The translations under genes and the position numbers were made by a program. The notes beneath the pieces were generated by a model that ran no database searches, was not told where the DNA came from, and saw only the letters and a program-made list of their open reading frames with translations. From Ardenticatenaceae bacterium (GTDB lineage Bacteria; Chloroflexota; Anaerolineae; Promineifilales; Promineifilaceae): a stretch of DNA of 64,000 nucleotides. Location: contig WYBM01000068.1 in assembly GCA_011525915.1 (NCBI GenBank), positions 1 through 64,000 on the forward strand, written 5' to 3'. This document shows, piece after piece, positions 17,278 through 50,300 of this stretch (position 1 is the stretch's first letter; each line of letters opens with the position of its first letter).

Positions 17278-19764
17278 TCAGGGGTTGGCCGGCGGCGTAA
17301 GGGTGGGTAGGGTCGGCGGTGTGGCCGTGGCTGGTTCTGTGGGTATTGCTGTGACTAAGGGGGTGAAGACGGCCGTAGGCTCTGGCTCCGTGGAAACAGT
17401 TGTAGGGGAGGGTGTGGTTTCGGCGGCGGTGGGCGTTGCTGGCAGGTAGGGCAGCCATAGGCGCTGCCCTATGCTTAAGATAGTGTTATCCAGGCAATTG
17501 GCCTGTAAAATGGCAGATACCGTGGTACCTGTGGCCGTCGCCAGCCCAAAGAAGGTATCGCCGGTTTGTGTGGTGTAAGTGACCCAATTGGCAGGCCTGG
17601 TGCAAGCCGCGGTGGCTGTGGCCGTAGCCGCTACCGTGGGGCTGGCTGTGACAGAGTTTGTGGGCGTCTGGCTGGCGGTAGGTGAAGGCCTGGCGGTGGC
17701 CGTCTGGGTGGGTGTTATCGACGGCGAAGGTGTGGCCGAAGCAGATGGTATGACGGCGGGCACGGCCGTGGTCATGACGGTAGTAGACGTAGCTGTGGCT
17801 GACGGTGTTTGGGGCACGGCTGTGGGCGTCCCAGTGGCTAAGGGGCTGATGGCAGCCGCCAGCTGCCGCCTGACCATAAAACCTGCAGCCAGCAGCAGCA
17901 AAAACCCCATCAACACCAGCACATACCACCATCGCCACCAACCGGGAGTTAAGGAAGTGGGTGTTCGTGGAGGTAAGGGTACCGTGGTTGGAGGCAGCGT
18001 GGGCTCCTCCTGAAATATCTTCTCAGCTTCAATGGCGGCATCCAGTTGGGCTAAAAAAGCTGTCATATTGACAAAGCGTTGCCCTTCATCGGTAGCCAGA
18101 CATTGGCCTATGAGTACATTGGTCTCCGGTGCCAGCCGGGTGCGGTTGGGGGTCAAAGGGGACGCTGGCGGCACATCGGCCGGCGCATAGTGAGCCAGAT
18201 TCCACAACGGCATGCTGGGCCTATGGCCAGACAGCAGTTCATAGAGCATGATGCCTAACGAATAAATATTTGACTGTACAGACACCCGTTTGCTGGAATA
18301 AAGCTCTGGCGGCACATAATCGGGTGTATTCACATGGATCTCTTGAGCATTGATGGTCGGAGGCATGGGGATTTCCAGACCAACAATGACAGGCTGATTG
18401 TCTGCCTGCAGAATGATATGCTCCGGTGTGAGTTCATTATGAACCAGCCCGGTCTGGTGAACCACATCCAATGCTTCAGCAATGGCCCGGATAAGGGCCA
18501 TACTGGCGGTGATCGGTAAACATTTATCTGGCCGTGACCATTCATGGTTTAATCTGGCAGCCAACGTTTTCCCCGGCACAAATTTATAAGCTACAAACGG
18601 CCGTTGCTCGGCTGTCTGCCCGGTGCGTGTGATAGAGGCCAGGCCAGGATGGTCTAATATGGACAGGGCCGCCAGTCGATTTTGAAACAGTTCAGCCTGG
18701 GCGGCATCACTTTCGGCCGGTTGCCTGAGAACGGTCAGAACGGCCGTAGATTCCAGCGCTTCATTGCGGGCCAGGTATCGTTGGTAAGGGCGAGACTGGT
18801 CATTGGCGAACTCACGCTGGATTTTATAGTTGTCAATTTTGATGCTGGGTAAAGCGATAAAACCAGAGGATACGGCCGTGTCAATATCAAACGGTGGTAA
18901 GTCTGGTACGTGACGTGTGATCGCCTGGCGCAAATCAACCACAAATGACACGGCATCCCCATAACGGGCTTCTGGTTCTCTGGCAATGGCTTTTAAGATA
19001 ACGGCTTCCACATCGGTTGGGATATCTGGGTTCAGCCGGCTGGGGGGCAATGGCGGTTCTGACGACTTTCGCATGATCAAATTCATGATATTTTCGCCGT
19101 CAAACGGCAGCTTTGTCGTCAACATCTTATACAACATTACCCCCAGCGCGTAAATGTCTACCCCCGGTGTCATGGAGGCTGTTTCAATTTGCTCTGGTGC
19201 CATATAAGCGGGTGTCCCTGCCCCCAGGCCACTTTGGGTGTGCAAGGATGCGCCGATAATTTTTGCCAGACCAAAATCACCCAGATACGCATGCTCACGG
19301 GTGTCCAGGATAATATTCCCCGGCTTTACATCGCGGTGAATGATGCCCTGCCTGTGTGCATAATGCAGCCCCCCCACAATAGGGGTGATCAGTTCATAGG
19401 CCTTCGATGGCGATAGTGGGTGTTGCTCTAAAGAGAGATACTCCTCCAGTGAAGGGCCATTGATGTACTGCATGACCATGTAATAGAGACCATCATCAGA
19501 CACATCAAAGTCAAAAACCTGAATAATGTTGGGGTGGATAAGGGTGGCTGTTGCCGCTGCTTCATGGCGAAACCGCTCTACAAAACCGGGGACACGGGTG
19601 TGGTGTGGGTGCAAAATTTTGACGGCGATATCACGTTGCAAGTCAGGATGACGAGATTTATAAACGTTCCCCATCGCCCCATACCCGAGCAAATTTTGCA
19701 GCTTGTAGCGGCCCACGGAAAACCCGTGTAGATTGGCAAAATTGATTGTTTCCGTTACAGGCAT
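17278..19764 (-). CDS. Transmembrane Ser/Thr protein kinase with pseudokinase and LysM domains
   Basis: 828 residues from ATG 19764, 10 bases after the FHA gene stop; a GTG at 19818 would overlap that gene. Kinase domain 1 (about 17-290) has the ATP Lys in IAVKIL, catalytic HRDVKPGN, GDFGLAK and GTPAYMAPEQ. A second kinase-like domain (about 310-560) has Arg in TVLRQ for the ATP Lys, HNELTPEH for HRD, and GLE for DFG, so it should be inactive. One membrane helix (WWYVLVLMGFLLLLAAGF) is followed by a Thr/Pro/Ala-rich stalk and a LysM-type domain (TTQTGDTFFGLA, GQRLWLPYLP). This suggests cell-wall glycan sensing coupled to a cytoplasmic kinase, with the pseudokinase as regulator. Confidence 0.93.
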   Translation of the reverse strand: MPVTETINFANLHGFSVGRYKLQNLLGYGAMGNVYKSRHPDLQRDIAVKILHPHHTRVPGFVERFRHEAAATATLIHPNIIQVFDFDVSDDGLYYMVMQYINGPSLEEYLSLEQHPLSPSKAYELITPIVGGLHYAHRQGIIHRDVKPGNIILDTREHAYLGDFGLAKIIGASLHTQSGLGAGTPAYMAPEQIETASMTPGVDIYALGVMLYKMLTTKLPFDGENIMNLIMRKSSEPPLPPSRLNPDIPTDVEAVILKAIAREPEARYGDAVSFVVDLRQAITRHVPDLPPFDIDTAVSSGFIALPSIKIDNYKIQREFANDQSRPYQRYLARNEALESTAVLTVLRQPAESDAAQAELFQNRLAALSILDHPGLASITRTGQTAEQRPFVAYKFVPGKTLAARLNHEWSRPDKCLPITASMALIRAIAEALDVVHQTGLVHNELTPEHIILQADNQPVIVGLEIPMPPTINAQEIHVNTPDYVPPELYSSKRVSVQSNIYSLGIMLYELLSGHRPSMPLWNLAHYAPADVPPASPLTPNRTRLAPETNVLIGQCLATDEGQRFVNMTAFLAQLDAAIEAEKIFQEEPTLPPTTVPLPPRTPTSLTPGWWRWWYVLVLMGFLLLLAAGFMVRRQLAAAISPLATGTPTAVPQTPSATATSTTVMTTAVPAVIPSASATPSPSITPTQTATARPSPTASQTPTNSVTASPTVAATATATAACTRPANWVTYTTQTGDTFFGLATATGTTVSAILQANCLDNTILSIGQRLWLPYLPATPTAAETTPSPTTVSTEPEPTAVFTPLVTAIPTEPATATPPTLPTLTPPANP

Positions 19765-19774
19765 AATAAGATGG

Positions 19775-20740
19775 TTACCAATCAATGACTGGTTCCAACG
19801 GGCTGGTAACCAGGACACCCAAAGCTGGCATTATTTTTTCTACGTGAGCCAATGTAACCTGTCCCCCAGGCAGGGGGTCGGTTAATATATCTATGGCTAA
19901 CTGTGCTAGATTTTCATGGGGTGTATCCTTTGCCTGGCCAATAAAATCAGGATGTGTCGCCCGCCAGGGAAGCACCCATTTTCGGACGGCCGGTAACAGT
20001 TCACTGGCCTTTGTCATATTAACCGCAATACCGGCCTCGTGCTGGGTTAAGGAATGAACGTAAATGTGTTCCGTAGTTTTACCTTGATATTCTACCTGTA
20101 CCTGATAAGCGTTCGAAAGGGCCTGTAAATAGGGTGTGATCTCACTGACAAAAAAGTATGGCGTTATCCCTTGCTCAGGGCTGGTTAAGGACCTTTTTAG
20201 AATAAATGTTGCGGTGCCTGTTTTGAGGCCAACCAGTACTTTAAGCGGCCCCAGCGATAATTGGTCGCCGTGATGCAGCTCACACAGCTGACCTGCCTCT
20301 AGCCGTTTGCGGTTTACCCAGGTGCCGTTTGTGCTGTTCAGGTCTTCTAAGGTAAAGATGCCGTTGGCAAAATTCACCCGGGCATGATGGCGTGAAATAC
20401 CTAACGTCAGGGTGCCATATTTGGTCAGGTCTATAACGTTACCGGGCGTATCGCTGCGGCCCAGAATGACCGCCTGAGGCTGAGTGAGAACGATGATTTC
20501 TTGCTGGTCGCTGACAAACAGCGCCAGGGTGTTTGCTGGCAATGAAGCCATGCGCCTTTCAAAATCAGGATGTGTTGTGGCGCCCGCTGCGGGGGTTTCG
20601 TGAACGCGGAATGTGGTAAGGGCGTGGCCTTGTGTTGAAAGAAAAGGGGTACCACAATGTTTGCATTTTGTGTTATCAGGTTCATTTTCACGTTGGCAAA
20701 ACGGGCAGTAGATGATGTTCATAATCCCGGTGTCACTCAT
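19775..20740 (-). CDS. Zinc-ribbon and FHA domain protein
   Basis: 321 residues from ATG 20740, with AAGGAGAACAA directly upstream. A four-cysteine zinc ribbon (YCPFCQRENEPDNTKCKHCG) leads into an FHA domain at about 85-165 (ILGRSD, ISRHHARV, LNSTNGTWVNRKRL), the module that reads phosphothreonine. The last 150 residues are an unassigned alpha/beta region. The gene is immediately upstream of the kinase, so it is a natural reader or substrate of it. There is no membrane segment, placing it in the cytoplasm. Confidence 0.9.
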   Translation of the reverse strand: MSDTGIMNIIYCPFCQRENEPDNTKCKHCGTPFLSTQGHALTTFRVHETPAAGATTHPDFERRMASLPANTLALFVSDQQEIIVLTQPQAVILGRSDTPGNVIDLTKYGTLTLGISRHHARVNFANGIFTLEDLNSTNGTWVNRKRLEAGQLCELHHGDQLSLGPLKVLVGLKTGTATFILKRSLTSPEQGITPYFFVSEITPYLQALSNAYQVQVEYQGKTTEHIYVHSLTQHEAGIAVNMTKASELLPAVRKWVLPWRATHPDFIGQAKDTPHENLAQLAIDILTDPLPGGQVTLAHVEKIMPALGVLVTSPLEPVIDW

Positions 20741-20755: not shown

Positions 20756-22981
20756 TCAGTTCCAACGTTGGCGGTGAGCTTCAATAACATTAGGCAGGTT
20801 TTCAAATTTCTGCAACAACCAGTTTAACTGATCCAGGCTGGTGACTTCAACTTCTAAATAGACGGTGGTAATGCTGCTGGCAGTTGTTGTTTTGGCGCGG
20901 GGGCTGTTGATTTTCTGCCCGCGCAGAATATTGACAATATCTTCAATCAGGCCAGGCCGCCGGTAAGCTTTAATGATAACCGGAATAGGGAATGTTTCCG
21001 CTTCTGTCCCCCAATCTACGTCAATCAGGCGTTCTGGTTCGGTGATGTTGTCTAGCTCTTTGCAGTCCCGCCGGTGGATGGTGATGCCTTGCCCGCGGGT
21101 GATGAAGCCGATGATTGGTTCTGGCGGAATGGGCTGGCAGCAGCCGGCCATTTTGGTAGCCAGCCCTCCTAAACCCTGCACGGTAAGGCCCTTGGCGCTG
21201 CCTGGTTTGGGCAAGAGCAACGGCCGTAGTTCGTCATCTGGCTTAAGACTGGTTTGCATCAGGGCAATAGCCCCGCTGATCTGCGTGCTTTGGATGTCAC
21301 CAAACCCTACCTTGGCCAGGAATTGTTCTTCGTCTTTGTACTTTAACGCTTTGGCAATGTCTGAAATGGTGTACGTGTCGGTCAGGTTCAGCCGGCGCAG
21401 CTCCCGCTCAACCACCTCACGCCCCTGCTGAATATTTTGCGCCCGTTCTTGGTTGCGGAACCACTGCCGGATTTTGCTGCGTGTGCGGGCCCGGCCTGTA
21501 TACCCTAGCGTGGGGTTCATCCAGTCGCGGCTGGGGCCGCCTCGTTTGGCCGTAACAATTTCCACCCGATCACCCGAACGAAGTTTAACATCCAGCCCCA
21601 CCATTTTGCTGTTCACCTTGGCCCCCCGGCAGCGGTGGCCTACCTCAGTGTGAATCTGGTAGGCAAAATCAATGGGGGTAGACCCGGCCGGCAAGTCAAT
21701 AAGGTCTCCTTTGGGTGTGTAGACGTAGATGCGTTCTGCCAGGAATTCTGTTTCTAAAATGTCGGGGTCTGATTGTAAATCATCCCCCTCGCGCAGCGCT
21801 GCCAGCAGTTCACGCAGCCCCTGAATTTGCCGCTGCACAGAAGAAGCCACACGTGCGCCGTCTTCTTTATAGGCCCAATGGGCAGCCACACCACGTTCTG
21901 CCTCTTCATCCATACGTTGGCTGCGAATTTGCACTTCCAGTTTATGACCGGTTTCGGGGTCAATAACGGCTGTGTGCAATGATTGATATCCGTTGGCTTT
22001 GGGCGCGGCGATATAGTCGTCAAACTCACGTGGAATGGGTTTCCACAGGTTGTGAACTGCTCCCAAGACCAGGTAACAGAGCGTACGGTCGTGATCTTCT
22101 TTTTCCTTAACGTTCATTTGGGTATAAGTAGCCGGGTCAGACGGCCGTAAGATCACCCGCAGCGCCTGTACGTCATAAATTTCCTCAAAGCTGACGTTTT
22201 TACGCACCATTTTGCGGTGAATGGAGTAAATGTGTTTTGGCCGGCCGGTCACCTCGGCATCAATCCCCAACTCCTTGATTTTATGCCGTAATTGGGCAAT
22301 GGATCCTTCAATATAACGAGCACGTTCCGCCCGGCGGTCTGCCAGTTGGCTGGCGATCTCCTTGTATGTTTCTGGCTCCAGGTAACGGAAGGCCAGGTCT
22401 TCCATCTCCCACTTAAGCTGCCAGATGCCTAACCGGTTAGCCAACGGTGCGTAAATGTTCATAGCTTCGGCGGCAATCTCCTGGCGGCGCTCTGGGGACA
22501 ACTGGCTGGCTTTGCGCAAATCTTGCAAACAGTCGGCCATGCGAATAAGCATCACCCGGATATCACCTTCAATGATGGCTAAGATGGCGCGGCGAATCCC
22601 CTCCAGGGTACCCGCTTCTGAGTTCTGATACTTTTTATACTGCGCTCGCTCCGCATAAGCATACAAATTTAACAAACCGCTAACCAGGTTTGCTACCTCT
22701 GGGCCAAATTCACGCGTAATGGTCAGCGCATCTAACCCCGTATGGGGCAGCAGGCTGTCATGCAGCAGCCCGGCTATGATGGTTTTGATGTCTGCACCCA
22801 ACTGAACCAGGATTTGGGCGACGGCAATGTCATGGTCAATAAACATCTCACCAGATTCCCGACGACGGCCGTGATGCGCCCGCTCTGCTACTTCATAAGC
22901 TTGCCGTACGCGCTGGGCCGTACTGCCATTTGGCAAGGCTTCCAGCAGTTCATTCAGGCTGATCAACGCTACCTGAGTCAT
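20756..22981 (-). CDS. rel: RelA/SpoT-family (p)ppGpp synthetase, hydrolase motif probably inactive
   Basis: 741 residues from ATG 22981 (a GTG at 23032 would add 17). Domain order is HD, synthetase, TGS (IYVYTPKGDLIDLPAGSTP) and C-terminal zinc-finger/ACT. Synthetase motifs are intact: RPKHIYSIHRKM, DDYIAAPKANGYQSLHT and EEAERGVAAHWAYK. In the HD domain the metal ligands are kept (His50, His74-Asp75, Asp150), but the HDxxED motif of bifunctional Rel enzymes reads HDSLLP, so the catalytic Glu-Asp pair is Leu78-Pro79. Loss of this pair in known Rel proteins removes (p)ppGpp hydrolysis, so a synthetase-biased enzyme is predicted. It lies 16 bases upstream of the FHA gene. Confidence 0.93.
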   Translation of the reverse strand: MTQVALISLNELLEALPNGSTAQRVRQAYEVAERAHHGRRRESGEMFIDHDIAVAQILVQLGADIKTIIAGLLHDSLLPHTGLDALTITREFGPEVANLVSGLLNLYAYAERAQYKKYQNSEAGTLEGIRRAILAIIEGDIRVMLIRMADCLQDLRKASQLSPERRQEIAAEAMNIYAPLANRLGIWQLKWEMEDLAFRYLEPETYKEIASQLADRRAERARYIEGSIAQLRHKIKELGIDAEVTGRPKHIYSIHRKMVRKNVSFEEIYDVQALRVILRPSDPATYTQMNVKEKEDHDRTLCYLVLGAVHNLWKPIPREFDDYIAAPKANGYQSLHTAVIDPETGHKLEVQIRSQRMDEEAERGVAAHWAYKEDGARVASSVQRQIQGLRELLAALREGDDLQSDPDILETEFLAERIYVYTPKGDLIDLPAGSTPIDFAYQIHTEVGHRCRGAKVNSKMVGLDVKLRSGDRVEIVTAKRGGPSRDWMNPTLGYTGRARTRSKIRQWFRNQERAQNIQQGREVVERELRRLNLTDTYTISDIAKALKYKDEEQFLAKVGFGDIQSTQISGAIALMQTSLKPDDELRPLLLPKPGSAKGLTVQGLGGLATKMAGCCQPIPPEPIIGFITRGQGITIHRRDCKELDNITEPERLIDVDWGTEAETFPIPVIIKAYRRPGLIEDIVNILRGQKINSPRAKTTTASSITTVYLEVEVTSLDQLNWLLQKFENLPNVIEAHRQRWN

Positions 22982-22991
22982 GGTATATACC

Positions 22992-23029
22992 AAAAAAAAA
23001 CAGACGTACCCCTCGTCAGAGACGCCTGT
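22992..23029 (-). terminator. Intrinsic-terminator-like hairpin directly upstream of rel
   Basis: On the minus strand ACAGGCGT and ACGTCTGT can pair (8 bp with one G-T) and are followed by a run of nine T. The run ends about 11 bases before the rel ATG, leaving no room for another promoter. It therefore terminates upstream transcripts, or works as an attenuator in the rel leader. Confidence 0.55.
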
Positions 23030-23143
23030 CACGCTTACTAAAAATGGCAGGAAATTTTGATTGAACCAGAATCATGCCATAAACGCCAACAACCCCCTCC
23101 TATAACGCATAGGGTTAAGCGCCTACTGAAATTACCAGTATAT

Positions 23144-23181: not shown

Positions 23182-23577
23182 TTACACCGCGCCATCGCCG
23201 GTGGCCTCATCAGCACCGGTGCTTTTTTCTACATCTGCACTGTTGTCAGCCGAGTCTGTGCTCTTGCCACGATCCAGCACGATGCGTGCCTGTTCTTGCA
23301 CCCGCCCTGTGGCCGATTCCACTTGCTGCCGGGTCTGGCTCATCATCTCGTTGGCCCGATCCACGTATTGGTGCGTAAAGGTGGCAGCTGTGTCCCGGTA
23401 TTGTTGAACCTGCTCTTCACCAGCATGAATAAATTGCTCACTCCTGGCCGCAATCTGGGCACGTGTTTCTTGCCCAGATTGTGGCGCCAGAATAATGGCG
23501 GTGGCGGCGCCAACCAGCCCCCCGATAACAAACCCTGCCAGAAAGGCGCCCAAATCATTTGATGTATTTTCGCTCAT
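23182..23577 (-). CDS. YtxH-like membrane-anchored protein
   Basis: 131 residues from ATG 23577 (AAGGA seven bases upstream); an upstream in-frame start would overlap the neighbouring gene. The N-terminal helix FLAGFVIGGLVGAATAIILA and the following LAPQSGQETR are the YtxH family signature. The rest is a charged amphipathic helix with a Ser/Asp/Glu/Ala-rich tail. Family members are small stress-related or gas-vesicle-associated envelope proteins. It is co-directional with the next membrane protein and with rel. Confidence 0.85.
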   Translation of the reverse strand: MSENTSNDLGAFLAGFVIGGLVGAATAIILAPQSGQETRAQIAARSEQFIHAGEEQVQQYRDTAATFTHQYVDRANEMMSQTRQQVESATGRVQEQARIVLDRGKSTDSADNSADVEKSTGADEATGDGAV

Positions 23578-23638
23578 AGTCTCATCCTTCTTTAGACTGT
23601 ACCTGGGCATCTGATGCTCAGGTGCAGCCCTGCTTTTT

Positions 23639-24139
23639 TTACTTGATGTTATTGCGGGGATCGCCAAATAATGTTTTGAATGCCCGCCGCACGCCAGCCA
23701 TATGGGCGCGGGTGCGAATGGTGGGTTGCACCAGGTTCTGGCTGAGAAAGGTGGTGGTGCCCCGCAGTGTGTTTACAGTTTCATTTGTTTTTTCCAGAAT
23801 CGGTTTGATTTCAAATTCCAGCATGTTTACCAGACGTATCATCATCACCAGCAGCAGCATGATCACAATGCCAAACAGGCAAGACTCCAGGGCCAGAACG
23901 ATGATCAATATGTCTCGCACCGCCGCGATGGTAGTGGCCTGGGTTTGTGCCAGCCAGATGGCCAGGATGACAAAACCAAACAGTAACAGCATTAAGACCA
24001 AAGCAACAATGATCATGACAGGGGTCGATGGGCCCCGCCGTGATCGAGTCTCCTCCGTGTCTGTTGGGTATGCTGGTAGATAGCTCAGCGTGCTTGATTG
24101 TGGATTTTTTGATGTTTGTTCAGGTGGTTGTGTACTCAT
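23639..24139 (-). CDS. Two-helix membrane protein, unknown function
   Basis: 166 residues from ATG 24139. A hydrophilic, Thr/Ser/Pro-rich N-terminus (about 40 residues) leads to two strong hydrophobic segments (IIVALVLMLLLFGFVILAIWL and ILIIVLALESCLFGIVIMLLLVMMI region), then a basic helical C-terminus with KTLFGDPRNNIK at the end. It resembles an uncharacterised membrane protein that is often paired with YtxH in Chloroflexota, but I state that only as an impression. The gene is 61 bases upstream of the YtxH start. Confidence 0.72.
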   Translation of the reverse strand: MSTQPPEQTSKNPQSSTLSYLPAYPTDTEETRSRRGPSTPVMIIVALVLMLLLFGFVILAIWLAQTQATTIAAVRDILIIVLALESCLFGIVIMLLLVMMIRLVNMLEFEIKPILEKTNETVNTLRGTTTFLSQNLVQPTIRTRAHMAGVRRAFKTLFGDPRNNIK

Positions 24140-37484: not shown

Positions 37485-37945
37485 TGCCCGGCTTCCATCG
37501 TTGCCTACAATTCAAAGAAAGTTTATGCAAATTCAAAGGGAAATTTATTGCATTTTTATGGGTGCGTCCTGTAAGATAATTTGTGTCAGAGAGTTTTTCA
37601 TGTACTGGTTTTGTGTGTCATTGTGCTTTAGGGGCTGCTCTGGGCGTGGATGTCACACCATAAAATTCACCTGTTTTGTATTGGCCTGGTAAATAATTAA
37701 ATACACTGTTACAGAAATTATATAACTAGGGAAAGGTCTTGTGCCTGCCCCTACCAAAGTGCGGTTTTTACGTAATACTGTATTAAACAGCGCTTCGGTT
37801 GGGTCTGCTGTTTCCTGATGTTTTTGTTTGCAAGAACAGTCAGGTTCTGGGAAATCAGTGGTTGGTTGAAGGCGTCAAGCCGGTAAAGAAACCTGTTTAA
37901 GTCACCCCTGTCGGTGCAAAATGCTGCCCTAAGAGGAGTATGCTC
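37485..37945. other. Long leader of the giant surface-protein operon
   Basis: 461 bases without a gene. The first half is AT-rich. A weak hairpin (AAACAGC 37785-37791 with GCTGTTT 37807-37813) lies in the second half. GAGGAG at 37933-37938 is the ribosome site for the giant gene that follows. I looked for a riboswitch and found no match. Confidence 0.5.
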
Positions 37946-40900
37946 ATGGAGAGAATGTTGGCCTCTCGTTATTCTCGCTTGCCTGTGATCTTTATGATTA
38001 TGTCATTGCTGCTGGTGATCCTTTACGTGATAACCAGTCTTTACGCGGCCACAGTTGGTGAAAAATTGCCCGATGTGGCCGGCTACGGGTACACCACAAC
38101 CAGCCGCACCCCGTTAACGGCCGCTCCCCACCCAGGCTTCTCCTCTGCTCAGTCTTCAGCCGGTGGTGACCTGGTTAAACCAGCATTGGGTGATGGCATC
38201 AAACTCCCCTTTGATCCCCAGGTGATCATTGAGCAGTCACGTAACGCGGTGCAGACAGATGAGGCCGGACGGCCGTTTATCCACCACCCTGCCCATCAGG
38301 CCTTGTTTACGGACAGCCGCTTTCACTTTACCGCCCTGGCTGGCAGCAAGGGTGACCTTGTCAATGCAGAAACAGGGGCGTCGGCGGCTCTGCCGGCGGC
38401 CCTGCCAGTAACAGCCCGGCCACTTTGGGCGCTTAACCTTGAACTGGCGCAAGTCACTGTCGGTCAAGAGCCAATCCCCATTGCCACCACCCAGGCATAC
38501 GCCGTGGTGGGGAACATCGTGTCTGCGCAGCGCGGTGATCATCTGGTGGAAGAATTTGTAGCCCGCGATGAAGGTGTAGAGCAGCGCTGGCGGCTGGAAA
38601 AAATACCAGACACACCCGGCGATCTGACACTGACGATTTTGGCGGAAACCCCTCTGACATTGGCGCAAGCAGGCGCCGATTTTGTGTTCCAGATGGCCGA
38701 TGATAGTGGTGTTCCCGTGCCCATCATCAGCTATAGTCGTGCCCTGGCCATTGATGCCGACGGCCGTACGCAATGGGCAGAGGTAGATTACAAACAAATA
38801 GCTGCTGAACCAGGTGCCAACCGCTATCATGTGTCCTTTACTTTTTCGGAAGCGTGGCTGGCTGCCGCCGCATACCCCATCCTGATCGATCCCCTCATCA
38901 GTAATCTGGTTCGCCTGGAACAGAACGGCCCCGCCAACGACCAGAGTATGCCTGAAGTGGCCTATAACCCGGACCAGGATCAGTTTCTGCTGGTGTGGCA
39001 GGATTATCGCAGTGGTAACTGGGACATCTATGCCCAACGGGTGAATGGTGACGGCGCTTTGCTGGGCGAAAACTTTGTCATCGCCAATGCCGCTCACGAA
39101 CAAAGCGGTCCCCGTATCGCTTACGGTAATGGTGTTTACCTGGCAGCCTGGAAACACCATACCAGTTCCTCCTCGGCTGCGTTTGATACCTACGGCGCCA
39201 TCATCTCTGGCACGGGCAGCATTCTCATCAATAACCTGCCGATTGCGGCCGACAACAGCATCTATGACCGCGAACTACCCTCGGACATTGTCTACAACGG
39301 TGCTTCTGGTCAATTCCTGGTGTTGTACCGCACCATGAGCGGCGGCTGGACCAACGTCTGGTCGCGGCGTGTGGCCCCAGACGGCACCATGCAGCCCAAG
39401 ACACAAATCACCTCCCAGCCCAGTAACCACGAGGAAAACGCGGTGGCCGCTTACCACCCCGCAGCCAACAACTATCTGGCCGTCTGGGAGTCCCATACCG
39501 GGAGCGGGCGAAAGCTGTATGCGCAGCGGCTGACCAACAGCGGCAGCCCATCTGGCCCGGTGATAGATATCAGCAGCGGCAGTGGTGATGAACGCCAGGC
39601 AGACATCATCTACCTGGCGACGGCAGACCGCTATGTTGTTGTGTGGCGTGACAACCGTAACACCAGCAGCAGCTATGATGTTTACGGCCAGCGTGTAGCC
39701 CCAAATGGCACGCTGGACGGGGGTAACTTTGTGGTGGCGGCCGAAACGGTGATGGAAAGCGCGCCGCGCCTGGCGCCAGATGCCATGACCAGTGGTGCAC
39801 TGGTGGTGTGGCAGCACAACAGTGGGGGGAGTGCCGGTTATGATGTATACGCCCGTTATCTAGACCATGCTGGTCTGCTGGTTGGCAGCAGCTTTGCCCT
39901 GGAAACAGCGAGTGCGCACCAAAACCGGCCGGTGCTGGCCCAGAACAGTGGCGGTGACTTCCTCATCGCCTGGTATGATAACCGCCACGGTGACCAGGAC
40001 ATCTTCACCGGGATGAGAATGGCCGACGGCCGTTGGGTTGGTGCAGGTATGGCTCATCCCACTTCCGGTGGGCAGGAAAAGCCCCAAGTGGCCTATAACC
40101 CCGATGATGATGAATACCTGGTTGTCTGGCAAGATTACCGCAGCGGTGAAGATTGGGATATTTATGGCCAACGGGTAGCCGCCAATGGTTCGCTTATTGG
40201 TGAGAACCTGGCCATTGATGCCACCACAAAATATAACCAGAGTGAACCGCGAGTAGCCTATGGGGCCAATGAATACCTGGTTGTCTGGCAGAATGAGGAG
40301 GAAAAAACGGGGTATTTGGGCGTCTACGGCCGTGTGCTCAACCGGAACGGCAGCTTTGCCACTCTCAAATTCCCCATCCAAATGCTTGCTTATACCCGGC
40401 TTATGCAAGAAAGCCCAACGGCCGTCATTCACAACAGTGCGGCGAATCAATTCCTGGTGTTGTGGGAGGCACAGGTAAACGCCACCAACTGGAATATCTT
40501 AGCGCGTCACGTCCTGCCAAATGGAACCTTAGGCACGTCTAGTACCATCACCAACCTGACGGTTCACGAAATAGACGCCACCGGCGCTTATAACCCTGAC
40601 GACGATCAATATCTGGTGGTGTGGGAAGAGATCAATAACTTTGGCTATCACGCGGTTTACGGCCGTCGCCTGACCGGCAGTGGCACGGTGATCACGGGCG
40701 ATTACATCCAAATCAGCACAAACCTGGCCAGCAGTGCCGCTGCCGATGTGATGTACCAGGCTGACACGAACCAGTATATTGTCGTCTGGCAGCAGGTGGG
40801 TGACATTTACAGTCGCGGCGTTTTACCAGTAGGTGAAGTGGCGCCTGAAGGCCCTTTTGTGGTAGCCAACAGCAGCGACTACGAAACTTACCCCCGCCTG

Positions 40901-43900
40901 GCGCCAAACGCCACGGGCGCCTTTGTGACCTGGCAGGCAGGTAACAACTTTGGCGCCCAAAATGACCTGTACGGCCGTTTGTTAGACAATGACGGCCGTC
41001 CTGACGACGACGTGGTGACCGTGCTGGAGGCAGACGGAGAACAACAAAACGCGGTGGTGGCCTACGGCGGGAATGACCATTACTTGCTCGCCTGGCAGAA
41101 TAACTGGGAAGGCGTCTGGGATGTCTACGCGGCCCTGTTTACCCCCTTTTCGCCCCAACTGCTCGTTAGTAAAAGCGGCCCGGCCGTGGTAGACCTAGGC
41201 GATCTGATTACCTACACCTTAACCATCAGCAATGGTGGCCCCCTGACGGCAACCCACCTGCTGATTACCGATACCCTGCCAGCCAATGCCCACTATGTGA
41301 GCGGCGGTACACGCAACGGCAATGTTGTGTCCTGGTCTTTACCGTTTTTGGGTGTGGGCCAGGGTGCGGCCGTCTCCTTTGTGGTAACGGCGACAACAAC
41401 CATCACCAACAGCGACTATGGCGTCAGCGCCGATGATATGCCGCAGGCGGTGATGGGTGCACAGCCGGTGGTGACACTGGTACGGCCGTTGGCCGACTTT
41501 ACCGCCGCCCCGCTCGCTGGCACCTGGCCCCTTACCGTGACCTTCACCAACCTTTCTACCGGCGGGCAGAGCTTCCTGTGGAACTTTGGTGATGGCGCTA
41601 CCTCGCCAGAAGCCAACCCAACCCACACATATAATGCCACCGGCATCTACACAGTGACCTTGACAACCTTTGGTGATGGCATCAATGCCACGCTGACGCG
41701 CCCCAATTACATCGTGGTGACCACACCACCCCCAGCCCTCAACATCAGCAAAACCGCCCCGGCCATCGTAGACGCCGGGGACCACATTACTTACACCTTG
41801 ACGGTGACAAACAGCGGTTTAGGCCCGGCCCATCACCTGCACATTACCGATACATTGCCCACCAATGCCAGTTATAGAGGCGGCGGCCGGCTGATAAATG
41901 ACATCGTTCACTGGTTCCTGCCCACGCTGCCAGAGGGCAGCGCCACGCAGGTGCAGTTTGTGGTTACAGCTAACGAAACGATTACCAACCAGGCATATAG
42001 CGTTCTGGCACACAATGCGCCTGAAGAAAAGCTGACGCCGACACTGCCTGCCAATAATATGGGCCATAGTGTGGTCATCAGCGGGACCACGGCCGTGGTC
42101 GGCGCCGTGAATATCCCGCATTCTGCTTATGTGTTCCTGTTTGAATGGGATGGATATCGGTGGGTGCCCCAAGGCCAGCTGCTGCCGGGTGATGGCGCTA
42201 CCGGTAACTGGTTTGGCGCCAGCCTGGCCATAAGTGATGATACTTTGCTTGTGGGTGCGCCGGGTGACGATGATTTGGGCGCCAGCGCCGGTGCCGTCTA
42301 CGTCTATGTGCGGGATACCAATGGTGAATGGCAGTACTTGCAAAAATTATTAGCTGATAACGGTGATAGTTCCGACCAGTTTGGTATCAGCGTGGCTCTA
42401 GACGGGGATACGGCCGTTATCGGTGCTTACAAAGACAGCGGTGGTGGCCATGGTTGGGGCTCAGTCTACGTGTTTGAGCGGGATGTTAATGGTCTATGGC
42501 AGCAAGATTTCCAGATCCTGCCGCCGCTGGCAGAACCTTATGGTTTGCCCTATCGGGATTTTGGTTACAGCGTGGCCATAGACCAGGATGCTGTTGTCAT
42601 TGGCGCCCCGGACGGCCCCCCCTCTGACAATTACGTGGGCCATGCCTTTGTCTACGAGCGCGATGCGGCCGGTTGGGTTTTGGAAGACGAACTCATACCC
42701 GGCGGCGCAAGCCGGCAGGGATTTGGGTTGGATGTGGCTATTGATGGTGATACGGTGGCGGTGGCCGCTAACTTAACCACGCTCTTCTCCTCCAACAGTT
42801 ATCAGACGACCGGCCGGGCTTATGTTTTCCGGCGCAGTGGGAATAACTGGCTGCCACACCAGCGGCTCAATCGCATCGGTGGTTCCAGCAATGATGGGTA
42901 CGGCAGCAGCATCGTCATTGCCGGCGATACCATTCTGGTAGGCGCTCCCTATGACAACGACAACAGCCTGGATGCCGGTGCTGTCTACCGCTTCCGGCGA
43001 GACGCCACCAATACCTGGAACCAGGATTTAAAGCTGACAGCTACCGATGGCGATACAGCGTCGCCCTACGGTTATCAATTTGGCTGGAGTGTTGCCTTAA
43101 ATAATAACAACGCTTTGGTTGGCGCGAACAGCACCTGGCCTTTTGGTGCGGCCTATGTATATGACCTTGCCGCTGATACTGCTGTCTGGGCTGTCGGGCA
43201 AGCGCCGGTGGTGACGTTGGTACGGCCGTTGGCTGACTTCACCGCCGTCCCCGTGACCGGCACCGCCCCCCTGATGGTAAATTTCACCAATCTCACGGTG
43301 GGCGGTGATACCTACCTGTGGCGTTTTGGTGATGGCGCTGCTTCTACCGCTACAGACCCCAGCCATCTCTATTTGCAGCCTGGTGTCTACACCGTCACTC
43401 TCACCGCTTACAACCCAGTAGATGCCGACGTTATTACCAAAACCAATTACATCACCGTGGCCGTCCCCCGCGCCTGGCAGCAGATTACTTCCACCAATAC
43501 CATCTCTGCCTGGGGCAGTTATGCGCTGGCCTTTGACAGCCAGCGCCAGGTGGCCGTCCTTTACGGCGGCCGCAATGGCTGGCCTTACACCAGCCACACC
43601 TGGGAATTTAACGGCACAACCTGGCTGACGGCGACCACCAGCCAGCAGCCAGAAGCAGCCTATGGCGCGGCCATGGTTTATGACCAGGCGCGTGGCCACA
43701 GCCTGCTCTTTGGCGGCAGTAATGCCGCGGATGAAGTCCTTGCCCAAACCTGGAGCTACGATGGCCTCAATTGGAGCCAGCAAACGCCGGTCAATGCACC
43801 ACCGGCGCGTACCGAACACCAACTAGTCTATAACCCGGCCACCCAAACGGTTTTCCTCTTTGGCGGCCGCAATCAGACCACCGTTTTTAATGACGTGTGG

Positions 43901-44344
43901 GAATACGATGGCATCGATTGGACACAGATAACGGTGGGCAGCTTCTCACCACAGGCCCGCTCGCTGCCTGCCCTGGCCTTTAACCCGGCCGATGACACCT
44001 TGCTGCTTTTTGGTGGTCGCAGCCAGAGCGGTGCACAGTTGGGCGACACCTGGGCCTTTGACCCGGCTACAGACAGTTGGGCCTCCTTGCCTGGCGGCCC
44101 GCCGGCGCGGCAGGCGGCCAGTATGGTTTATGACCCGTACCAGCAACGCCTTGTGCTGGTTGGCGGGGTGGCCGGCGACGGCGACACTCTCTTTAGCGAT
44201 ACCTGGGGTTTTGCTGCCGGTATGTGGGTGGCCATCAATACCAGCCCACCCGCGCCGCCCGTGGCCTACCACACGCTCATCTATGACAGTCATGCTGATG
44301 CCCTCATTCTCTTAACCGTCGGGCAGACCTGGAAGATGGAGTAG
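37946..44344 (+). CDS. Giant modular surface protein (propeller, DUF11, PKD, FG-GAP, kelch)
   Basis: 2132 residues. ATG 37946 is preferred: AGGAG (37934-37938) lies 7 bases away, against 1 base for the ATG at 37940. An N-terminal membrane helix (VIFMIMSLLLVILYVI) leads to long tandem repeats of the type FLLVWQDYRSGNWDIYAQR (about 330-1070). Then come DUF11-like (SGPAVVDLGDLITYTLT), PKD (LWNFGDGATSPE), a second DUF11-like (DAGDHITYTLTVTN), an FG-GAP propeller of about 395 residues, a second PKD (LWRFGDGAAS) and kelch repeats (LFGGRNQTT, VWEYDGIDWTQ). It is probably exported and surface-exposed. No sortase motif is seen at the end. It is followed 17 bases later by the YD-repeat gene. Confidence 0.88.
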   Translation: MERMLASRYSRLPVIFMIMSLLLVILYVITSLYAATVGEKLPDVAGYGYTTTSRTPLTAAPHPGFSSAQSSAGGDLVKPALGDGIKLPFDPQVIIEQSRNAVQTDEAGRPFIHHPAHQALFTDSRFHFTALAGSKGDLVNAETGASAALPAALPVTARPLWALNLELAQVTVGQEPIPIATTQAYAVVGNIVSAQRGDHLVEEFVARDEGVEQRWRLEKIPDTPGDLTLTILAETPLTLAQAGADFVFQMADDSGVPVPIISYSRALAIDADGRTQWAEVDYKQIAAEPGANRYHVSFTFSEAWLAAAAYPILIDPLISNLVRLEQNGPANDQSMPEVAYNPDQDQFLLVWQDYRSGNWDIYAQRVNGDGALLGENFVIANAAHEQSGPRIAYGNGVYLAAWKHHTSSSSAAFDTYGAIISGTGSILINNLPIAADNSIYDRELPSDIVYNGASGQFLVLYRTMSGGWTNVWSRRVAPDGTMQPKTQITSQPSNHEENAVAAYHPAANNYLAVWESHTGSGRKLYAQRLTNSGSPSGPVIDISSGSGDERQADIIYLATADRYVVVWRDNRNTSSSYDVYGQRVAPNGTLDGGNFVVAAETVMESAPRLAPDAMTSGALVVWQHNSGGSAGYDVYARYLDHAGLLVGSSFALETASAHQNRPVLAQNSGGDFLIAWYDNRHGDQDIFTGMRMADGRWVGAGMAHPTSGGQEKPQVAYNPDDDEYLVVWQDYRSGEDWDIYGQRVAANGSLIGENLAIDATTKYNQSEPRVAYGANEYLVVWQNEEEKTGYLGVYGRVLNRNGSFATLKFPIQMLAYTRLMQESPTAVIHNSAANQFLVLWEAQVNATNWNILARHVLPNGTLGTSSTITNLTVHEIDATGAYNPDDDQYLVVWEEINNFGYHAVYGRRLTGSGTVITGDYIQISTNLASSAAADVMYQADTNQYIVVWQQVGDIYSRGVLPVGEVAPEGPFVVANSSDYETYPRLAPNATGAFVTWQAGNNFGAQNDLYGRLLDNDGRPDDDVVTVLEADGEQQNAVVAYGGNDHYLLAWQNNWEGVWDVYAALFTPFSPQLLVSKSGPAVVDLGDLITYTLTISNGGPLTATHLLITDTLPANAHYVSGGTRNGNVVSWSLPFLGVGQGAAVSFVVTATTTITNSDYGVSADDMPQAVMGAQPVVTLVRPLADFTAAPLAGTWPLTVTFTNLSTGGQSFLWNFGDGATSPEANPTHTYNATGIYTVTLTTFGDGINATLTRPNYIVVTTPPPALNISKTAPAIVDAGDHITYTLTVTNSGLGPAHHLHITDTLPTNASYRGGGRLINDIVHWFLPTLPEGSATQVQFVVTANETITNQAYSVLAHNAPEEKLTPTLPANNMGHSVVISGTTAVVGAVNIPHSAYVFLFEWDGYRWVPQGQLLPGDGATGNWFGASLAISDDTLLVGAPGDDDLGASAGAVYVYVRDTNGEWQYLQKLLADNGDSSDQFGISVALDGDTAVIGAYKDSGGGHGWGSVYVFERDVNGLWQQDFQILPPLAEPYGLPYRDFGYSVAIDQDAVVIGAPDGPPSDNYVGHAFVYERDAAGWVLEDELIPGGASRQGFGLDVAIDGDTVAVAANLTTLFSSNSYQTTGRAYVFRRSGNNWLPHQRLNRIGGSSNDGYGSSIVIAGDTILVGAPYDNDNSLDAGAVYRFRRDATNTWNQDLKLTATDGDTASPYGYQFGWSVALNNNNALVGANSTWPFGAAYVYDLAADTAVWAVGQAPVVTLVRPLADFTAVPVTGTAPLMVNFTNLTVGGDTYLWRFGDGAASTATDPSHLYLQPGVYTVTLTAYNPVDADVITKTNYITVAVPRAWQQITSTNTISAWGSYALAFDSQRQVAVLYGGRNGWPYTSHTWEFNGTTWLTATTSQQPEAAYGAAMVYDQARGHSLLFGGSNAADEVLAQTWSYDGLNWSQQTPVNAPPARTEHQLVYNPATQTVFLFGGRNQTTVFNDVWEYDGIDWTQITVGSFSPQARSLPALAFNPADDTLLLFGGRSQSGAQLGDTWAFDPATDSWASLPGGPPARQAASMVYDPYQQRLVLVGGVAGDGDTLFSDTWGFAAGMWVAINTSPPAPPVAYHTLIYDSHADALILLTVGQTWKME

Positions 44345-44360: not shown

Positions 44361-47300
44361 ATGAAACAGTCGCTCTCTCAGCAAACGCACCCTACACCTG
44401 GAACGGGAATAAACCGTGCCCGCTATTTTCTACTACCGGTTTTGGTGGCCATCACGGCCGTAGCCGGGCTGATTCTGCTGCTGCGCGGGCCCGAAGCCTT
44501 GTTTGCCGCCATTCCCCCGGAGATGCCCATCTTGCAGACCGGCGGCATCACCCGTTATGTGCAGGCTAATGGTCTGGAAACGGGTGATTGTACCACCCAG
44601 GCCACTGCCTGCACCCTGGCCTACGCGGTCAGCCAGGCCACCACGGGTGATGAACTGCTGGTGGCTGGCGGCCTTTATACCGTGCCGGCTGGGGCAGACG
44701 AAGTGCTCTCTCTGACAAAATCCATCACCCTCACCGGCGGGTATGATGGCAGCGAGGCCATCCTGGATGCCCAGGCGCAGTTTCAGAAGCGCGTTGTGCT
44801 TATTCAAGGCAGCGTGACGCCGGTGCTCGAAGGGTTCACCATACGGAACGGGAACGCTGACTTTGGCGCCGGCATTGCTGTGCTGGCCGGGGCCAACCCT
44901 CTCATTCGTCACAACAAGATTTATGGCAATAACGCCACCCACAACGCTTCAAACCTGACGGCGGCCGGCGGCGGCGGTATCTACGTCGGCGGCGGGGCCA
45001 CCATTGCCCACAACGAGATTTACAGCAACAGCGCTACCTACAAAGGCGCGGGTATTTTCACCGATGGTGACCCTGCCATCATCCGCACGATTGCCTTTAA
45101 CCATATTTATCATAACAGTGCGCAGAATGACGGGGGCGGCCTGGCATTGGAAGGTGTGGTGGTGGTGGATGGCAACGTGGTGCATGGCAACACGGCCGTA
45201 CGCGGCGCCGGTGTCTACCTGAACAAATACGGCGGTAACATCCGCCTGCAAAACAACATGCTTTACCAGAACCGGGCCGTCCAGAGCGGTGGTGGTATTG
45301 GCACCGGCCTCTTGCTGGAGCCGGGCGCTGCCCTGGTGGCCGAAATCTGGCATAACACCATCGTCTCGAACGTAGTGACGGCCACCAACGGCACGGGCGG
45401 CGGCCTCTACTGGGGTATTGACCTGTCGCTGGACCTGAGGAACACCATTGTGGCCAGCAACACGGCCGTGACCGGCAGCGGCATTTACAGTGACGCGGCC
45501 GGGTCCACCGTCACCAGCGGCTTCAACAACCTTTACAACAATACGGCCAACATCACCCTGGTCGATCCCATTGTTGGCGCGCCGCACTTCCGCGACTGGG
45601 CCAATTTTGACCTGCGCCTGTCCCTCAACAGCACCGCCCACATCGACACCGCCGATGGTTCAGCGCCGGTGGTTACGGACTTTGAAGAGGACCCACGGCC
45701 GTGCGGCAATGGCCCCGACGTGGGCGCAGATGAATATTGCCTGGCCGACCCGGCCTACTCTTCCGTGGCTGTCGCCCCCGGAGCGGCGTTTGCCGATGGC
45801 GTCGACGTTATCACCGTCACCGTGACGGTGCGCAACAGCTCTCGGCTGCCGTTGGCCGACCGCACGGTGGATCTGCAAATTTCTAACCCCAACGTTAACG
45901 TCACCTGGGTGAATGGCAACCAGACGGGCGCCGGGGGCACCGCCACGGCCGTGCTCACCAGCACCACGCCCCTGACGGCCACCCTGCAAGCTGTGGTCAG
46001 CAGCGACGGTGTTACCCTGCCGCCAATCCCTAACATTGCTTTCCTGGCTGATGATGACTATCGTTGGCAAACCATCGCCATCACCATCAGCAACGGCCTT
46101 GATGATGCCGGGCACTCACATCTGAGTTGTTTTGAGGCTAACAACCACAACGAAATTTATTTTGGTTACTGCGACAATGGCAACCGTATCTTAAGCGGTC
46201 TCCGTTTCCCCGGCGTGACGCTGCCGGCAGGGGCCGTTCTGGCCGATGCCCGTCTGGCCTTTACCGCCAGTGATGATTACGGCAATGTCATGCCGGTTGT
46301 CCACTTTTACGGCGAAGCCAGCCCCAACTCACCGAACTTTAGCGGCCGTCTGCCCAGCCATGTGACAGCGCGAACGGCGGCGCATATCGAGTGGGCCATC
46401 ACCGGCTTTTGGGACGGTTTTCCCAGTGGCTACATTGTGCAGACGCCCTCTCTTTACCCCATTGTGGACGAAATAATACGCCTGGGTGGCTGGGTAAACG
46501 GCAACCCTATATTGCTCCTGGTAGAGCCCCTGGAGCCAACGCCGCTCAACCATCGCCGGGTGGTGGCCGAAGATTTTGGCATCTATGACCCGGCGCGGTT
46601 GGTGCTGACCGTGGCCGTGCCACGGGTGGCCGATCCGCAGCTCTCTACATTGGCCGTGACGCCCACGGTGGCCATCGCCGATGGCACGGATATTCTGACG
46701 GCCACGGCCATTATTCGCGATGACCTGGGGCCGCTGGCCAACAAAGAGGTAAACATTGCCTCTGACAACCCCCAGACCCAGATCGCTTACCCCTACGGCT
46801 CTCTGACCGATGGCGATGGCCAGGTCATCGTCCACCTGACGGCGAACGTGCCGCATACGGCCACCATCGAGGCGACCGTTCTTGATGACGGCGTCACCCT
46901 GGATCAGACCGTGGTCGTTACCTTCACCGACGTGCCTATCACCGGGCTGGCGGTACAAAATGACAGCCCCACTGACCTCAACGGGACTACCCTCTTTACG
47001 GCCACCATCAGCAGCGGCACCAACGTGGTGTATACGTGGGACTTTGCCGATGGCCTCACCGTCAGCGGCAGCAGCCCGATGACGACACACGTCTACGCCA
47101 GCACTGGCCTGTACACGGCCGTCATCACCGCCCACAACAGCGTCAGCCAGATCAGCGCCACCACGCCTGTCACCGTCTACCAGTCAGTGGCCGGTTTAAC
47201 GGCCGTCAATGACAGCCCCACCGTCTTAAATAACGCCACCACCCTGACGGCGGCGGTGACGGCTGGCAGTGACGTGGTTTATCTCTGGAACCTGGGCGAC

Positions 47301-50300
47301 GCGGTCACCACCACCCTGCCCATCACCAGCCATCTCTACCCGGCTATTGGCCAATACACGGCCGTGGTCACCGCCCGCAATGAATACAGCCAGCTCTCTG
47401 CCTCGACGCTGATCACCATTACCGATGAACCCATCGCCGGCCTGACGGCCAGCAATGACAGCCCCACGGTGCTGAACAACAGCACCGCCTTTACCGCCAG
47501 CCTCACCGGCGGCACCAACCCCACGTTCCTCTGGGACTTTGGTGACGGCCAGCACGGCAGCGGCCCCAACCCCAGCCACACCTATACCCAAACCGGCGAT
47601 TACACGGCCGTGGTCACCGCCAGCAACACCGCCAACCAGATGGTGACGCAGACGGCCGTTTACGTGCGCCACGCTGTCATTGATCCGGCACTTTCCCAGA
47701 TCGCCGTCACTGGCAGCAGCACCGCTGCTGCCGATGGTCAGGACACGGTGGCCATTTTGGTGACCGCGCTGAACGGCCAGGGCCAGCCCGTGCCTGATGC
47801 CCAGGTGACGCTGACGGCCACCGCGGCCGTAACCTTCAACCAGCCGCCGACCACCGACGCCAACGGCCGGGCCACCGGCACCGTCAGTCATGACCAGGTG
47901 GGTGTGGTCACCATCGGCGCCGTCATCGACGGCCAATCCATTGCTGCTACGGTCAATGTCACGTTTGTGGCCGCAGAACTGGCCATTGATAAAACCGGCC
48001 CGGCCGAAGCCGTGAACGGCTACCCCCTCACCTATACCCTTCACATTGCCAATCAGGGCTTGCTCACCGCCAGCAACGTCATCGTCACCGACAGCCTGCC
48101 GGCTCAGGTCAGCTACAGCGGCAGTTCCATACCGCCAACCTCGGCTGTGGGCGGGGAAATCGTCTGGACGTTTCCCACCCTGGCCCCTGGCGCCATGATC
48201 TCCCTGACCCTGACGGGTAATGTGGCCGGCGCTTTGCCCAACAACACCCCCATTACCAACGACGTTATCGTTTCCCAAACGGGTGATGAACTGAACCTGA
48301 GTGATAACCAGGACGCTCTCACCTCGAATTTTGTCCAGCCGTACCCCATTCTCACCGTCGACCCCTACCAGACGCTGCTGGTGGAACAGGGCAGCACCCA
48401 TACGCTGGTCATTGACGTGCGTAACACCGGCACCAATCCCCTGGCCAATGCCGTCATCGCCAACCCCTCCGGGCAGTTACAAAGCTGGATTGACGTCTCT
48501 CCCACCGCTTTAGGCACCATCCCGCATCTTAGCAGCGCGCCGGTGACGGTCACGGCCGTGACCAACGGCGCCATCACCCCCGGTTATTACCGCAACCTGC
48601 TCACCGCCGATGGTGACGAGGTTACCGCCAAGAACATTTACCTGACCGTGCGTGTGCACAAGCCGTTCCGTGATCTGCAAATAACCGTCATCAATGATCG
48701 CGGTTTGCCGGTGGCCAACGCCATCATCGCCTTGCAATCTAATTTCCCGGTAGTAACAGACGGGCAGACACAACCAGACGCCACCTTCTTCTGGCAGGGA
48801 ACCACCGACGAAAACGGTATCCTCACCTTCCCCGATCTGGAAAGCGACCGCACCTACCAGTACACGGTGCTGGAAGCCCCCTTCCATGAATTGGGCAGCG
48901 GCGGCAGCTTTTTTGTGCCCGAAGGCACGGCCGTGCATCAAGAGAGTATCATCCTGACGGCGCTGCCGGCGTTACAGGTGTATCCCGAAGCCGTCGTCTT
49001 TCCGGTAACGGCCGGCGATTCGGAGCAGCGCCAACTGGTGCTCTATAACCAAGGGGCCACGCCCATTACCGGCATCACCATCACCGGCCCGGCCAACATC
49101 CCCTTTGTCTTCTTGGGGCAGCCCCCGGCCAACGCCACCATCCCGCCGGGTGGTGACCTGACGCTGCTGGTGAACGCCGCGCCGCTGTTTACAGAGACGC
49201 TGGGCATTTATACCGGCCAGATCATGGTAACGGCTGATGATGGGCTGACGGCCGTGGTGCCCCTCACCCTGACCGTGCATGACGGCAACGTGCGCAACCT
49301 GCATGTGGAAGTGCTGGCCCAGGATGGCTACTACGCCTATGCCTTCCCCAACGCCACCGTCATTTTAGAGAATTTACACGGACAGGTGATCGTCAACGGT
49401 ACCTATACCGAAACTTTTAACCAGACGCTGGTGGAGCAGACCGACATCGACGGCAACGTCTGGTTTAATGACCTCATTCCCGGCCCTTACCGCCTGACGG
49501 TGCAGAAAGGCGGCACGACCCTGGCCACCAAAGAGGTGGAGGTCATCGGCGGTACAGGTGACCAGTTGGAGATCATTTACGTGGAAGATCAGGGTCTCAT
49601 TACCACCTTCTCTGTGCAAGAAGGCACCATTCCCGATTTTTATACCACCATTATGACTATGACCTTCATCCCGCATGCCCGGCCGCGGGTCACCCTGACG
49701 CCGCGCCATGTGAACTTGTGTGGTGCGGGCACAGAAGGCATCACAGAAACGCTGACCATTCACAACTTCTACAACGTGGAGTTCAGCAACGTACAGGTAA
49801 ATTTAGAGACGTATGGCAACGTACGCGCTCGCCTCTCTCTGGCCGATGGTTCCAACTCTGTTTCCTATGAACCGGGCCAGCCTTTGCCAGGGCCGTTGAC
49901 CCTGGGCACGATCCCGCGCAACTCGCATGCCATCACACTGCAGCTGAACGCGCAATTGCTTGATCCCGTTTGTGAAGAACGCAGCCAGGGCGGTGTCCAC
50001 TTGCAGGCCACCGGTGATTGGGTGCACAGTCCGCCGCAAGCGTGGTATGGGTTTGTGCCGGGCCAGACGCCGGGTATGCTCCAGCCGACGGGCACGCCTT
50101 TTGACATCCCGCTGGGCTTGCGCAATGAGGGCTACCCGGCCGAAGCCAATATGAATGGTACCCCGCCGGATCTGGTAGACATCACCCTGACACCGCCGCA
50201 AAACCTTGACTGGATGGGCATTGATACCACCCACATCCCATCGCTGACGGTGGGCAGCGTCTATACCTTCAACCTGGTGGTAACGCCTACCCAATGGCTG

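Follow-up and report, generated by a model that had tools for sequence, protein, structure and literature searches.

A tandem kinase-pseudokinase LysM receptor restricted to one family of Chloroflexota, and its possible link to a neighbouring FHA protein

Comparative sequence analysis has revealed that a gene in the window (the whole stretch of 64,000 nucleotides of Ardenticatenaceae bacterium DNA that was analysed) encodes a membrane receptor in which a PknB-like kinase, a pseudokinase and an extracellular LysM domain are joined in one chain. The receptor is real, selected and family-restricted, and its anatomy, its kept and lost residues, its conservation, the separate origins and the joint inheritance of its two kinase folds can be read from the sequences compared. 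Our preferred explanation, held with a probability of roughly 45%, is that of a wall-tethered fused receptor whose kinase would dimerise and whose pseudokinase would be a phosphorylated platform docking an FHA protein; here the tethering, dimerisation, phosphorylation and docking are putative steps. The host genome (7.46 Mb in 106 contigs) contains 43 kinase-domain matches and 47 LysM matches in profile scans. Kinases and LysM domains are each common in it; both together with a second, degenerate kinase in one chain are uncommon. The features of the locus are as follows.

17278..19764, minus strand: kinase-pseudokinase-transmembrane-LysM receptor gene, encoding 828 aa from a likely ATG at 19764
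18961..19707, minus strand: PknB-like Ser/Thr kinase domain of the active type, residues 20-268, full catalytic motif set
17995..18828, minus strand: pseudokinase domain, residues 313-590, the second Pkinase stretch above the cut-off
17929..18024, minus strand: juxtamembrane segment, 32 residues of which 6 are Thr, candidate phospho-docking site
17872..17928, minus strand: transmembrane helix, residues 613-631, mean hydropathy 2.39
17449..17577, minus strand: LysM domain, extracellular, profile match
19775..20740, minus strand: gene for a protein with zinc ribbon, FHA domain and C-terminal domain, 321 aa
20249..20467, minus strand: FHA domain, residues 92-164, carrying the motifs G-R, S-R-x-H and N-G
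20756..22981, minus strand: rel, with HD, RelA_SpoT, TGS, RIS and ACT domains
23182..24139, minus strand: conserved partners of rel, namely a YtxH-like gene and another small membrane gene

The coordinates first given for the locus hold, apart from the start codon. The receptor reading frame was listed from a GTG at 19818, which falls within the FHA gene. Homologues align from query residue 19 of this frame, and the ATG at 19764 is therefore the more likely start. The tandem layout is kept at seven loci in six genomes of one family, belonging to three genera: the window, a paralogue on contig 37 of the host genome, and five loci (L001-L005) in other genomes. Strong matches to the receptor (E below 1e-130) were found in 6 of 52 family genomes, from three genera, and in none of the five congeners of the window's genome. 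A separate contig scan returned the same set of receptor-bearing genomes, and the relatives sharing the receptor are labelled Chloroflexi, Anaerolineae, Ardenticatenaceae. No genus from outside the family reached E below 1e-130 when the top few candidates per genome were scored in 298 genomes sampled from the class and 400 from the phylum. Compared with the window protein, the five homologues from other genomes are most alike in the kinase (62-65% identity), followed by LysM (50-54%), the pseudokinase (41-44%) and the transmembrane and linker region (24-32%). At the three loci of one genus, a large gene follows the receptor (L001:10770-13136, L002:3008-5332 and L005:10606-12954; 782-788/774 aa), and its product in L001, which was scanned, is TgpA-like transglutaminase.

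Pfam recognizes Pkinase in two stretches of the receptor, with 226.7 bits in total, and the best stretch covers positions 1-252 of 263. The first domain carries the glycine loop LGYGAMG, AVKIL, HRDVKPGN, DFG and APE, which bears out the initial annotation of a kinase retaining every catalytic motif, and it is apparently a working protein kinase. PknB is its best sequence match in the PDB. The residues R10, L33 and D76 of the PknB N-lobe dimer correspond to R19, L42 and D85 of the receptor kinase, invariant at all seven loci; the equivalents of L33 and D76 were located via mutant PDB chains, and R10 is taken as the third residue of the dimer face. With the glycine loop, the VAIK lysine, HRD, DFG, APE and the N-lobe dimer residues all present, this half has the features of a PknB-type domain. 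Thr176 in its activation loop is conserved. The receptor, with 385 bits, falls below the curated cut-off of 450 for the PknB/Stk1 PASTA kinases (NF033483). Outside the membrane Pfam finds no PASTA repeats; it finds the LysM domain that had been predicted there, with 38 bits for a cut-off of 20.9.

The second domain had been described as having lost Lys, HRD and DFG. The losses of Lys and DFG held fully, as Thr344 (VLTVL) at the lysine position and GLEIP at the DFG position are invariant in all seven pseudokinases. The loss of HRD stood only in part: HNELTPEH occupies the place of HRDxKxxN, the His is kept, and the Asp is present in three homologous loci (HND) and replaced by Glu in four (HNE). 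The domain thus has a kinase fold but neither the catalytic lysine nor the metal-binding Asp, which is the general definition of a bacterial pseudokinase. Judged against the described hallmarks of ActPs3, the MviN type (deletion in the activation loop, Y-- or FPG at DFG, complete loss of HRD), the domain differs in having HN[ED] and GLE instead; its spacing from DFG to PE is 23 residues, versus 26 in the kinase of the same protein. The listed PDB sequence matches of the pseudokinase did not include MviN, which may nonetheless be kin to it. The DLHK pseudokinases lack a transmembrane segment and have helicase/DNA2 partners (PMC12599244), and the receptor does not belong with them, having a transmembrane helix and LysM. 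At the positions of R10 and D76 the pseudokinase carries N/G and R/H, respectively, and because of these replacements it is unlikely to form the PknB-type N-lobe contact. For the same reason, a back-to-back contact of PknB type between kinase and pseudokinase was not favoured.

The two kinase folds differ in origin. A pseudokinase profile gave 77-100 bits with its own kinase neighbours and 166-256 bits with other proteins, which are either intact kinases whose DFG is replaced by DLG or solo pseudokinase proteins with a transmembrane segment. In a tree of 53 rows, every pseudokinase, whether solo or fused, falls in a single clade (100/99) inside the DLG side, and the kinase halves form a separate clade (100/99) on the opposite side, which rules out the pseudokinase as a duplicate of its own kinase. 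Both halves share the topology ((L002,(L001,L005)),((WIN,C37),(L003,L004))), where WIN is the window and C37 the contig-37 paralogue, and these matching topologies point to a single fusion followed by joint descent. Together, the sequences indicate that a PknB-like kinase was grafted once onto the N-terminus of a pre-existing pseudokinase-transmembrane-LysM receptor.

The solo proteins consist of an N-terminal pseudokinase, a transmembrane segment and then LysM (class I, 8 of 8) or SH3b (class II, all three complete members). Most class I members have lost the lysine and the glycine loop and have kept HHD, the Asn and D[LF]G. In the fused pseudokinases, with GLEIP, DFG is gone too. The solo receptors come from the same Chloroflexota family (L140-L150) and lack the N-terminal active kinase, but the fused receptor belongs with them by its position in the pseudokinase clade (100/99), its transmembrane helix and its LysM domain. 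Solo membrane pseudokinases with LysM or SH3b were recorded at L140, L141, L142, L143, L144, L145, L146, L148 and L150, and their genes are often clustered with genes for giant Cadherin/Big_9 proteins. They apparently constitute an undescribed bacterial family. Their existence lends some weight to another reading, in which the pseudokinase is a wall-tethered adaptor, derived from solo LysM receptors that sit beside cadherin/Big_9 giants in the same family, and merely localises a kinase with other substrates, FHA and rel being uninvolved. The FHA and rel linkage is specific to one genome, as this reading would have it; the repeated pairing of the FHA family with kinases and the tight, same-strand spacing of 10 nt at this locus speak against it, and we consider it rather improbable.

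The faster evolution of the pseudokinase, by about three times or more compared with the kinase half, could also be taken to mean that the second domain is a functionless, decaying duplicate. Neutral decay would bring dN/dS near 1 and scattered losses, whereas the pseudokinase has values of 0.13-0.16 and the kinase values of 0.02-0.05 (dS being saturated in all pairs but L003/L004). Since dN/dS is low and both the Lys-to-Thr change and GLEIP are invariant at the seven loci, the pseudokinase is judged from its sequences to be maintained under purifying selection, and gene decay of the second domain was ruled out on these grounds. The separate, non-duplicate origin seen in the tree points the same way, leaving this reading with hardly any probability. 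In the contig-37 paralogue (L067:7912-10314), SH3b replaces LysM, HRD of the first domain has become HGH with loss of the catalytic Asp, and the activation-loop Thr is lost, so that both of its kinase folds look degraded.

The FHA gene lies directly upstream of the receptor on the same strand, as had been noted, and rel lies further upstream; the FHA gene begins 15 nt after rel, and the receptor ATG follows the FHA stop by 10 nt. A promoter scan found promoter-like sites no commoner than in shuffles. The FHA domain scores 61.2 bits (Pfam cut-off 20.7) and has the Arg, Ser and Asn of a pThr-binding site. G94 and R95, S116, R117 and H119, and N138 and G139 are invariant in 14 family members, and the zinc ribbon has four invariant Cys. 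The predicted structure superimposes on GarA with Z 15.6 (rmsd of 1.6 for 102 residues) and on the FHA domain of FhaA, which was crystallised with the intracellular domain of MviN (Z 13.3). Because the pThr-binding residues are invariant and the model is GarA-like, the protein looks competent for pThr binding. The C-terminal domain (window 19778-20188, minus strand, about residues 185-321) is common to the 14 members and has no Pfam match; the matches listed in a fold search with the whole model were all to the FHA part. The window FHA protein is 27-37% identical to other family members (alignment A3), and its position in the FHA tree is unresolved.

Genes of this FHA family adjoin kinases at 8 of the 12 loci with a visible neighbour, a count that includes the window and relatives that are not independent. 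At seven of them (L068, L071, L072, L074, L075, L077 and L078), across genera, the zinc-ribbon FHA gene forms a divergent pair with a kinase-CHASE2 gene, often with a cyclase. No FHA gene was seen at the other six receptor loci, two of which lie on contigs that are short on one side. The proposed role of the FHA protein as a reader is thus upheld by its pThr residues and kinase neighbours and weakened by its presence beside this receptor at one locus in seven. Because the family habitually sits beside kinases, a partnership with the receptor is plausible, the pairing itself being a single-genome fact.

A link to rel, which had been noted upstream, was not supported by comparison. Among 19 relatives the block of small membrane genes and rel is found almost throughout, and in these no FHA or receptor gene was seen within 0.5-1.5 kb after rel. 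A conserved rel-FHA-receptor operon is rejected on this context, which is kept with neither gene behind it over that flank. The receptor and FHA genes look like an insertion behind a native rel gene; by gene order, a functional tie of the receptor to (p)ppGpp is not supported and the rel neighbourhood is incidental.

In the explanation that we prefer, LysM would tether the receptor to wall glycan, and crowding or a ligand would bring receptors together. Wall sensing fits the domain content, because LysM and SH3b are the only extracellular domains recognised in the receptor family and in the nearest pseudokinase relatives. The kinase half would then dimerise via its conserved PknB-like N-lobe face and autophosphorylate; kinases of PknB type are activated by N-lobe dimerisation (PMC3601408). 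The pseudokinase would serve as a non-catalytic, membrane-proximal platform, whose long Thr-rich tail (or, alternatively, Thr176 of the activation loop) may be phosphorylated in the host genome and recruit the neighbouring zinc-ribbon FHA protein, which would pass the signal on. The tail is a candidate docking site: the five homologues from other genomes have juxtamembrane segments of 15-17 residues with 0-1 Thr, versus 32 residues and six Thr in the window, and the contig-37 paralogue has 36 residues and two Thr. The sole genome with the FHA neighbour is also the one with the six-Thr tail, a correlation that rests on one locus.

The pseudokinase might instead act as an allosteric switch, moved by LysM engagement so as to release or prop up the kinase, with FHA an ordinary substrate or unrelated. 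Tandem arrangements of pseudokinase and kinase are known from the JAK/TYK2 kinases, which are of Tyr type; the receptor differs in having the kinase first, in being of Ser/Thr type and in being a true transmembrane receptor. A switch resembling that of JAK2/TYK2 would agree with the constancy of the tandem layout at the seven loci and the joint inheritance of the two halves, with the position of the pseudokinase between membrane and kinase, and with the lack of FHA at the other six receptor loci. However, the pseudokinase lacks R10 and D76 of PknB type and so could not use the activating interface known from bacteria. The contig-37 paralogue keeps its pseudokinase although its first domain has lost the catalytic Asp, which a scaffold fits better, and the AlphaFold model of the receptor (pTM 0.50) leaves relative domain placement unreliable. 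On balance, we find allosteric switching doubtful.

The closest known arrangement for a receptor with a phosphorylated docking platform is the wall-related set of PknB, MviN (ActPs3) and FhaA in M. tuberculosis, where the tail of the MviN pseudokinase, once phosphorylated by PknB, binds FhaA (PMC12599244, PMC11898655). Both systems contain a PknB-type kinase, a pseudokinase with Lys changed to Thr (VALT in MviN), a membrane protein and an FHA protein. The receptor differs in uniting kinase and pseudokinase in one chain, in having LysM for PASTA and no MurJ flippase, in its separate sequence family and in its Chloroflexota host. In plants, active LysM receptor kinases (LYK3/NFR1) signal with pseudokinases (NFP/NFR5) (PMC3672211). 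These too place an active kinase and a pseudokinase under LysM domains, but as two separate proteins of RLK origin, unlike the single bacterial chain with one LysM; the parallel is one of analogy, not homology of assembly.

Bacterial pseudokinases are largely unexplored by experiment, and the families described for Ser/Thr kinases are ActPs1-3, GLW, CP1, DYD and DLHK (PMC12599244). The words "tandem", "LysM" and "Chloroflex" were absent from the main text of that 2025 review in a word search. A literature search for bacterial tandem kinase-pseudokinases or LysM kinases, subscription papers aside, gave nothing relevant, which does not in itself prove novelty. One could speculate, although we think it unlikely, that LysM/SH3 pseudokinase receptors of Chloroflexota normally act in trans with separate wall kinases, and that one lineage has fused its partner in cis, with FHA as the phospho-reader. 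If true, this would be a bacterial counterpart of the plant LysM kinase/pseudokinase receptor pairs. The family offers a graded series in which to test what a pseudokinase contributes to wall sensing, running from intact DLG kinase through solo pseudokinase with HxD/DxG and fused pseudokinase without DFG to a paralogue degraded in both domains.

Other large and kinase-bearing genes were also observed in the host genome. The window contains two giant genes. The product of the one at 37940-44344 (2134 aa) has FG-GAP, kelch and PKD; that of the one at 44361-61337 (5658 aa), scanned over half its length, has PKD, Big_1/invasin-type and Rhs repeats. On contig 102, a frame of 1033 aa (21497-23101) has a tandem pair of strong kinase domains, both well over the cut-off, and another kinase frame, on contig 47 (147748-151608, 1309 aa), has LysM as well.
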